This document shows positions 14,715 to 15,953 of a DNA stretch of 59,854 bases, piece by piece. The DNA is from Actinomycetes bacterium (lineage in GTDB: Bacteria > Actinomycetota > Actinomycetes > S36-B12), in assembly GCA_014190275.1 (NCBI GenBank), contig BJGE01000007.1, positions 1 through 59,854 of the forward strand. The letters are read 5' to 3'. A program made the translations under genes and the position numbers. Within the stretch, counting starts at the first letter, position 1. Every line of letters begins with the position of its first letter. The notes below the pieces were generated by a model. It searched no databases and was not told the origin of the DNA. It was given only the letters and a program-made list of their open reading frames with translations.

Positions 14715-15197
14715 GTGAGCATTTGCGTTGGAGATTCATTGCCGGTTGTTGAACTTAGAATGATGGTCGATGGTGCTCCAGCGACCATGTCCAGTTCTGA
14801 GGTGCTGGGCTCCGGGCGAGTAGTTTTATTCGCGGTACCGGGTGCATTTACCCCCGGGTGCTCTAACCTGCACTTCCCGGGCTATGTGGAGTTAGCCTCG
14901 AGTATTTCCGCGGCCGGGGTTGACACCATCGCCTGCGTCTCCGTCAATGACGTATTCGTCATGGATGCGTGGGGCAAGGCCCAAGGCTCCGGTGAGATCT
15001 TGATGCTGGCTGATCCTGCGGCTGCCTTCGCCGAAGCGGTTGGCATGGCGGTTGATGCCTCGGGTTTTGGCCTTGGAACCCGGTCAAAGCGCTACGCCAT
15101 GGTGCTACAAGATGGGGTGATCGAGGCATTCTTGCCTGAAGAGGATGGCTTCGGCGTGCTGGCAAGCACCGCATCGTGCGTATTGGCCAAGCTTTAA
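14715..15197 (+). CDS. Peroxiredoxin (AhpC/TSA superfamily, Prx5-like)
   Basis: Reduces peroxides with a peroxidatic cysteine. The active-site segment VPGAFTPGCSNLHFPGYV places Thr46 and Cys49 in the TxxC arrangement; the spacing and the NLHFPGY context match the Prx5/atypical group. The 160-aa length is normal. The start is GTG at 14715, preceded by GAGATGGAG. A clear resolving cysteine is not obvious apart from Cys94-like and C-terminal cysteines (SVNDV region; TASCVLAKL), so the reductant is unknown. Confidence 0.9.
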   Translation: MSICVGDSLPVVELRMMVDGAPATMSSSEVLGSGRVVLFAVPGAFTPGCSNLHFPGYVELASSISAAGVDTIACVSVNDVFVMDAWGKAQGSGEILMLADPAAAFAEAVGMAVDASGFGLGTRSKRYAMVLQDGVIEAFLPEEDGFGVLASTASCVLAKL

Positions 15198-15221
15198 GCG
15201 GGGCCTGTTTAAAGATTTTTG

Positions 15222-15295
15222 TGCCCCGGGTGAGATTTGAACTCACACTGGACCGAGTTTGAGTCGGCTCCCTCTGCCGGTTGGGGTACCGGGGC
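15222..15295 (-). tRNA. tRNA-Leu(CAA)-like gene with short variable loop
   Basis: Read on the minus strand, the 74-nt sequence folds as a complete cloverleaf. It has a perfect 7-bp acceptor stem (GCCCCGG/CCGGGGC) with discriminator A, and a D arm with three C-G pairs and a loop containing GG. The anticodon stem GCCGA/TCGGT encloses loop CTCAAAC, and the perfect T stem GTGAG/CTCAC encloses TTCAAAT. The anticodon is therefore CAA, which reads UUG (Leu). The variable region is only five bases (CCAGT), unlike the long arm of ordinary tRNA-Leu. CCA is not encoded. It lies antisense to both flanking genes. Confidence 0.85.
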
Positions 15296-15350: not shown

Positions 15351-15356
15351 TTGCCC

Positions 15357-15953
15357 ATGAACTTGCCCGCACTCGTGCACCCGCGCACCGTGTTGGTGGC
15401 AGAGGATGAAGCCCTAATCCGGATGGATCTGGTCGAGATGCTCGCGGAACTGGGCTATGAGGTGGTCGGGCAAGCCGGCGATGGGGAGCAGGCGGTGGCC
15501 CTAGCGCGCGAGTTGCGACCTGATGTTGTCTTCTTGGACATAGCCATGCCGATACTCGACGGACTCGGTGCTGCTGAAGAGATCGTTGCGGCTAAATTGG
15601 CGCCGGTGGTGATGGTTTCGGCCTTTAGCCAGGCCGAGGTAGTGGCTCGGGCTGCCTCGGCTGGGGCCCTTGGGTATCTCGTCAAGCCTTTTAGCGTTAG
15701 TGACCTGGCTCCGGCCATTGAACTGGCCGTTGCCCGCTGGGGGCAGTTACTTGATCTGGAGGGGCAGATCACCAACTTGCAGGAACGGGTGACCGCCCGC
15801 GAGGTGGTGGATCGGGCGAAGGCCCGGCTCCAAAAAGAGCTGGGGCTGAGCGAGGCGGCAGCATTTATTTGGCTGCGCCAACAGGCGATGGATGACCGGT
15901 TGACTTTGGCCGAAGTGTCGGCCAAAGTGTTGGCCGGGCCAACTAGTCGCTAG
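15357..15953 (+). CDS. pdtaR: ANTAR-domain response regulator, PdtaR-like
   Basis: A two-domain regulator that controls transcripts by RNA binding rather than DNA binding. The receiver domain (about residues 10-125) has the acidic pair E16/D17, the phospho-acceptor Asp61 in FLDIAMP and Lys110 in YLVKPF. The C-terminal ANTAR domain (about 135-193) begins NLQERVTAREVVDRAK and contains the expected helical pattern with AAFIWLRQQAMD. In mycobacteria PdtaR is phosphorylated by the histidine kinase PdtaS and acts on terminator/antiterminator RNAs. No kinase gene is adjacent. Confidence 0.9.
   Translation: MNLPALVHPRTVLVAEDEALIRMDLVEMLAELGYEVVGQAGDGEQAVALARELRPDVVFLDIAMPILDGLGAAEEIVAAKLAPVVMVSAFSQAEVVARAASAGALGYLVKPFSVSDLAPAIELAVARWGQLLDLEGQITNLQERVTAREVVDRAKARLQKELGLSEAAAFIWLRQQAMDDRLTLAEVSAKVLAGPTSR

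Follow-up and report, generated by a model that had tools for sequence, protein, structure and literature searches.

A class I tRNA-Leu(CAA) gene in an actinobacterium: one of two discrete architectures of leucine tRNA

Introduction

Can a leucine tRNA that lacks the long variable arm serve as an ordinary reader of UUG in a bacterium? The question is raised by a gene in a 59,854-nucleotide stretch of DNA, here called the window (contig BJGE01000007.1 of assembly GCA_014190275.1, positions 1 to 59,854), from an Actinomycetes bacterium of the GTDB lineage S36-B12. The gene encodes a tRNA-Leu(CAA) with a variable loop of five bases. An earlier note, made from the sequence alone, had pointed out this combination and proposed an atypical, lineage-conserved decoder of UUG, a poorly charged tRNA with a regulatory role, or a misidentified isotype. 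The analysis described here shows that the gene is a real and complete leucine tRNA and not a pseudogene or a wrongly assigned isotype. It is very probably a functional elongator tRNA that reads UUG, with its tertiary core kept and its shape belonging to one of two discrete architectures.

Structure of the gene and its leucine-type core

Read on the minus strand from 15295 to 15222, the gene is GCCCCGG UA CCCC AACCGGCAG AGGG A GCCGA CUCAAAC UCGGU CCAGU GUGAG UUCAAAU CUCAC CCGGGGC A, with the following parts:

15222-15295, minus strand: class I (short variable loop) tRNA-Leu(CAA) gene, tRNA positions 1-73; from ARAGORN, Rfam RF00005 (51.5 bits), conservation and covariation
15259-15261, minus strand: anticodon CAA (34-36), reading UUG; from the sequence, with CAA in every CAA orthologue compared
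15247-15251, minus strand: five-base variable loop CCAGU (44-48), with U48 opposite A15 and the A46-G47 signature; from the sequence and the class scan described below
15270-15288, minus strand: position 8 and D arm, with U8, A9, a three-pair D stem, the C13/A22 mismatch, A14 A15, G18 G19 and A20a; from the sequence and comparison, with leucine identity positions per PMC9976931
15222, minus strand: discriminator A73; from the sequence, with A73 in 54 of 54 distinct CAA class I sequences

ARAGORN reports tRNA-Leu(caa) at 15221-15295 on the minus strand as the sole tRNA of the window. The RF00005 match (15222-15295, minus strand) runs over the full length of the family with an E value of 3.6e-8 and a score above the gathering threshold of 29. 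All stems are intact: the acceptor stem has 7 bp, the anticodon stem 5 bp (including G27-U43) and the T stem 5 bp. The D stem is built from three pairs (C10-G25, C11-G24 and C12-G23), C13 faces A22, and the D loop carries the extra base 20a. CCA is not encoded. With a variable region of only 5 nt, the gene falls within the 4-5 nt of class I and short of the 10 nt or more of the long arm that marks a canonical class II tRNA-Leu; it is accordingly filed as a class I variant. The description in the earlier note, with its perfect acceptor and T stems, A73, three-pair D stem and five-base loop, is thus confirmed by ARAGORN, Rfam and the sequence.

What the tRNA retains is the leucine-type core. The identity set A73, U8-A14, A15-U48, G18G19 and A20a is complete in the window tRNA and in 54 of 54 distinct class I CAA sequences, a set that includes loci found with a pattern fixing several of these positions. 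The same core positions are shared with class II tRNA-Leu.

Two architectures of tRNA-Leu in Actinomycetota

The class scan covered 217 Actinomycetes genomes with patterns that fix U8, A14A15, GGNAGA, the anticodon and GTTC and leave positions 9-13, 23-26 and 38-52 free. Among the matches listed, CAA forms occur in 147 genomes: short only in 105, long only in 41, and both in 1. For CAA, a given genome carries one of the two, in most cases at a shared locus beside pdtaR.

Because the 54-sequence comparison includes pattern-fixed loci, the classes are contrasted at positions left free by the patterns of the class scan (9, 12, 13, 23 and 46), using its distinct CAA sequences, 48 short and 35 long. 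Separation is complete at position 9 (A in short, G in long), at the pair 12-23 (C-G against G-C) and at position 13 (C against G or A). It is nearly complete at position 46, which is A in 47 of 48 short sequences and C, T or G in the long ones (C in 31 of 35). The variable loop measures 5 nt and carries G47 and U48 in all 48 short sequences, whereas the class II arm spans 13-17 nt. The short and long forms are alternative, stable ways of building the tRNA core and not a truncated series.

The short form is commoner still for the UAA isoacceptor, with about 131 genomes against 10 with a long form, and a long CAA tRNA is combined with a short UAA tRNA in 30 genomes. Short CAA forms also occur beyond Actinomycetes (families f34, f36 and f21 of a phylum scan). 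In many actinobacteria, including mycobacteria, UUG and UUA have come to be read by short forms.

Chance is not the explanation, since 33 of 40 relatives keep a short tRNA-Leu(CAA), pairing is near-perfect and most stem pairs show compensatory change. A set of 57 distinct class I sequences with CAA has 1134 of its 1140 stem positions paired (99.5%, against an average of 0.80 for shuffled columns), and 15 of 20 stem pairs have undergone Watson-Crick double changes. The lineage-conserved atypical decoder of UUG that the earlier note had put forward, with a core of leucine type, is therefore supported.

tRNA set of the host and its relatives

The host genome (G000) is a draft of 2.25 Mb in 129 contigs, 96.8% complete. 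Its 45 Rfam tRNA hits were all inspected with ARAGORN. The leucine set consists of long-armed CAG, GAG and UAG tRNAs, together with two short-armed tRNAs, the window CAA gene and a UAA gene (G000:C1:11844-11917, minus strand, locus L066/L081) of 74 nt before CCA. No long-armed decoder of the UUR (UUA and UUG) codons, and hence no canonical long-arm tRNA-Leu(CAA) of the kind that the earlier note had suggested looking for, is among the 45 hits of this draft. Pattern scans overlook atypical long-arm genes; most Streptomyces-like genomes give no CAA match, and the long UAA tRNA of the relative G027 has GGCATACGC. Absence was therefore judged from the full tRNA listing for the host and from the long-tRNA listing for G182 and G027.

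Two side observations concern the same set of hits. None of them is a tRNA-Asn, which probably reflects an assembly gap. A 61-base tRNA-like stretch (G000:C31:13190-13250, locus L073) scores 37.5 bits with Rfam and is rejected by ARAGORN. Its last bases are ACCACCA, and it could represent the 3' part of a transfer-messenger RNA or a relic.

The complete, single-contig genome G182 has eight long-arm tRNAs, namely four Ser, Leu(UAG), Leu(GAG), Leu(CAG) and Tyr; its Leu(CAA) and Leu(UAA) are both short, and there is no long UUR tRNA. G027, from the order of the window organism, holds a short Leu(CAA), a short Leu(UAG) (L298, G027:C9:275761-275833) and a long Leu(UAA) (L289, G027:C10:332568-332651), so the exchange of classes is not confined to CAA.

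These listings bear on the proposal that the window gene is a pseudogene or phage relic lying beside an unseen long-armed gene. Related short tRNA-Leu genes do reside on phages and a plasmid, and the host genome is a draft. Such a relic is nevertheless highly unlikely given the shared locus and near-perfect pairing across families, the lack of a long UUR tRNA in the complete genome G182, and the co-occurrence of both forms in a single one of the 147 genomes among the matches listed.

Codon meaning and leucine charging

The meaning of UUG was assessed by aligning polA, rpsA, uvrA and uvrB of the window with their orthologues in E. coli K-12. Codons facing an E. coli leucine are TTG at 37 of 57 aligned positions, TTA at 9 of 18, CTG at 45 of 80 and CTC at 33 of 46. 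UUG and UUA thus still mean leucine in the host. Across 20 open reading frames (ORFs) of the window there are 990 leucine codons, 206 of them TTG (21%) and 86 TTA, which together make 292 (29%). A search for leucyl-tRNA synthetase (LeuRS) found one gene of 839 codons above the curated cut-off. For a second or special LeuRS in the host genome, the further matches were only weak, lay in other large ORFs and were taken as related synthetases.

Since UUG remains a leucine codon, both UUR decoders are short-armed and there is one LeuRS, the window tRNA must be leucylated and read UUG; a tRNA responsible for at least a fifth of all leucine codons needs to carry leucine. How this would be achieved is suggested by work on E. 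coli, where the long arm is dispensable for leucylation and an arm-less, truncated tRNA-Leu stays active (PMC9976931). The elements reviewed as important there are A73, the A15-U48 Levitt pair, G18G19 and A20a, and mitochondrial tRNA-Leu identity includes A14 (PMC9976931). In the proposed mechanism, the long arm was lost or was never present, and the tRNA keeps the tertiary core that bacterial LeuRS recognizes (A73, U8-A14, A15-U48, G18G19 and A20a). U8-A14 is also counted among these elements in E. coli. Because this core is kept, the single LeuRS would charge the window tRNA along with the long-armed CUN tRNAs, and the window tRNA and the equally short tRNA-Leu(UAA) would together decode the UUR leucine codons.

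Several points weigh against this account. That LeuRS charges the tRNA and that the gene is expressed in this organism are inferred, as charging and expression are for class I actinobacterial tRNA-Leu in the literature found, and the charging of an arm-less tRNA is carried over from another species, E. coli. The constancy of U8, A14, A15, G18G19, A20a, A22 and the anticodon is partly by construction, as the scan patterns fix them. A gap in the draft genome could conceivably hide a long-armed UUR tRNA. The rescue of a mycobacterial host by phage Gaia, described below, is read from the phage sequence and its integration and not from a direct charging test. Finally, tRNA-Leu(UAA) could read UUG by wobble, so the window gene need not be essential; that tRNA is itself short-armed.

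A regulatory role in place of decoding, for a tRNA charged poorly or not at all, would suit the atypical architecture and the position of the gene, which is solitary and antisense and adjoins the conserved regulator gene pdtaR. It is very improbable all the same: apart from the equally short Leu(UAA), no tRNA found in the genome can read UUG, which makes up 21% of the leucine codons examined, the covariation points to selection on the entire cloverleaf, and other species have a long-armed tRNA-Leu(CAA) at the same spot. The misidentified isotype, charged by another synthetase with UUG reassigned or ambiguous, is close to impossible, as UUG aligns to leucine in the four E. coli orthologues just as CUN codons do, and the leucine-type D arm (20a insertion and 13/22 mismatch), A15-U48 and the other tertiary positions match those of long-arm tRNA-Leu.

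A shared locus and replacement in place

Two ORFs with provisional names flank the tRNA:

14715-15197, plus strand: peroxiredoxin-like ORF, neighbour
15351-15953, plus strand: pdtaR-like response regulator ORF, divergent from the tRNA (the start may be the ATG at 15357)

The gene therefore lies alone and antisense between them, as the earlier note had correctly stated. Its suggestion that the tRNA may be old and conserved at this locus is borne out as well, since pdtaR lies within 1.5 kb of tRNA-Leu(CAA) at 119 of the 131 loci checked, in opposite orientation at 112. These pdtaR-linked loci include long-armed genes (L270, L271, L273-L275, L278 and L279).

Genus g27 contains short-armed G330 and long-armed G338 and G363; their flanks are 81-88% identical, and around the tRNA, from about -77 to +229, the sequence has been replaced. 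Both states are likewise found in genus g215 and in family f6. As the two forms differ completely at positions 9, 12-23 and 13 yet usually share the pdtaR locus, with both states inside g27, g215 and f6, replacement in place has occurred more than once. The reading of the earlier note as a whole stands in part; it lacked the short UAA isoacceptor, the mutual exclusion of the two forms and their replacement at a shared locus.

How the swaps came about is a separate matter that does not compete with the role of the tRNA as a decoder. Mobile elements may exchange the forms between lineages, with a phage-borne tRNA-Leu taking over from a disrupted host gene, as opposed to a gradual loss of the arm. 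This origin is put forward tentatively, as a real possibility. It would fit the difference between the forms at a whole set of core positions without intermediates, the occurrence of both states beside pdtaR within three groups, the replaced stretch of g27 inside similar flanks, the tRNA of phage Gaia, opposite in class to that of its host, and the class I Leu tRNAs carried by phages. On the other side, a prophage scar was demonstrated at no swap site (the ORF comparison for phage remnants in g27 carried little information in high-GC DNA), and ordinary homologous recombination of another species' DNA would look identical.

The mycobacteriophage Gaia offers a relevant case. The tRNA-Leu-CAA gene of M. 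smegmatis is attB-11, and Gaia inserts itself into the mycobacterial tRNA-Leu-CAA, which it does not reconstitute, and carries its own tRNA-Leu-CAA; the authors conclude that Gaia lysogens live on the phage tRNA (PMC10865867). The Gaia tRNA-Leu(CAA) (L268, 9121-9204) is class II, long-armed and 84 nt long, opposite in class to the short-armed host gene that it replaces. The attP of Courthouse (cluster J) contains the 44-nt 3' part of the class I host gene. It matches the short mycobacterial gene exactly over this length, anticodon loop through 3' end, leaving no space for an arm. If Gaia lysogens rely on the phage tRNA, the long form fills the role of the short one in the cell, which indicates that the two are interchangeable.

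Short tRNA-Leu genes (CAA, UAA, UAG and CAG) occur in phages of Mycobacterium, Streptomyces, Lactobacillus, Salmonella, Acinetobacter and Synechococcus, with similar further matches in Erwinia and Enterococcus phages. The A9/C13/A46 signature is present in most of those from phages of unrelated hosts, namely Lactobacillus phage Bacchae (L247), Mycobacterium phage BeanWater (L250), Salmonella phage SeKF_13 (L264), an Acinetobacter phage (L265) and a Synechococcus phage (L249). A Ruminococcus albus plasmid carries a short tRNA-Leu(UAA); adjoining it on pRUMAL01 (L266, 207-283) is an odd 77-nt tRNA-Leu(CAA) with a D arm of long-arm type and a very short variable region. The class I pattern is also matched by 18 IMG/VR stretches. 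The same tRNA type occurs on contigs of metagenome-assembled genomes labelled Bifidobacterium breve, Bacteroidales and Planctomycetota (L163, L186, L207, L161, L197 and L208). The Bifidobacterium breve labels look wrong because two of these contigs carry a tRNA identical to that of the window; on the Bacteroidales contigs, clusters of tRNA genes suggest phage.

A bolder version, which is doubtful, would have Actinomycetota carrying two functionally equivalent, discrete architectures for the same codons that swap at an ancestral locus. Phages would drive the swaps by destroying the tRNA gene of the host and supplying one of the other class, and the short form might persist by escaping nucleases, toxins or integrases that recognize the host tRNA.

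Relation to known leucine tRNAs

The window tRNA resembles bacterial class II tRNA-Leu(CAA) in its anticodon, A73, U8-A14, A15-U48, G18G19, A20a, the three-pair D stem with a mismatch between 13 and A22 and, usually, the pdtaR locus. It differs in having 5 nt in place of a 13-17-nt variable region, A9 in place of G9, C12-G23 in place of G12-C23, C13 in place of G or A13, and mostly A46 in place of mostly C46. With animal mitochondrial tRNA-Leu(UUR) it shares the lack of a long arm in a leucine tRNA whose mitochondrial identity rests on A73 and A14 (PMC9976931). Unlike that tRNA, it is bacterial, with full, stable stems and no mitochondrial reduction.

In M. tuberculosis, leuV (CAA) and leuX (UAA) are short-armed, because each is listed at 74 bp against 87 bp for Ser and 81 bp for Tyr (PMC9336784). 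MiaA accepts an in vitro transcript of the CAA tRNA as a substrate for the N6-isopentenyladenosine (i6A) modification (PMC9336784), and the 12-nt T1 fragment reported there, ACUCAAAACCCG, is present in the class I gene of G182. The passages on leuV and leuX in that paper make no remark on the short architecture. The M. tuberculosis gene has A38; position 38 of the window tRNA (15257) is C, which breaks the A36A37A38 motif used for MiaA targets. A study of MenT3 states that the M. tuberculosis tRNALeu-2, -3 and -5 have a long loop (PMC11541572), implying by its wording that the others do not. A short variable loop is also noted on a cluster-borne tRNALeu(TAG) in mycobacteria (PMC6582537); that tRNA is an extra copy beside a normal long-armed gene, and the window gene is no such extra.

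A 2023 review describes tRNA-Leu as long-armed everywhere save in animal mitochondria (PMC9976931). In the open-access literature no earlier description of an actinobacterial short-arm exception was found, passing mentions aside; the exception is visible already in published gene lengths, such as the 74 bp of M. tuberculosis.

Implications

The short architecture is normal for this lineage. What surprises is how common and discrete the short variant is, and its exchange in place with the standard form. The rule of the long arm (PMC9976931) breaks down across a large part of a major bacterial class to which the mycobacteria belong. Isotype-scoring software that counts an absent arm against leucine may mis-score such genes. 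Species that hold both architectures under one LeuRS provide a natural test of leucine identity, and the swaps in place offer a tractable system for the change of architecture in an important tRNA.
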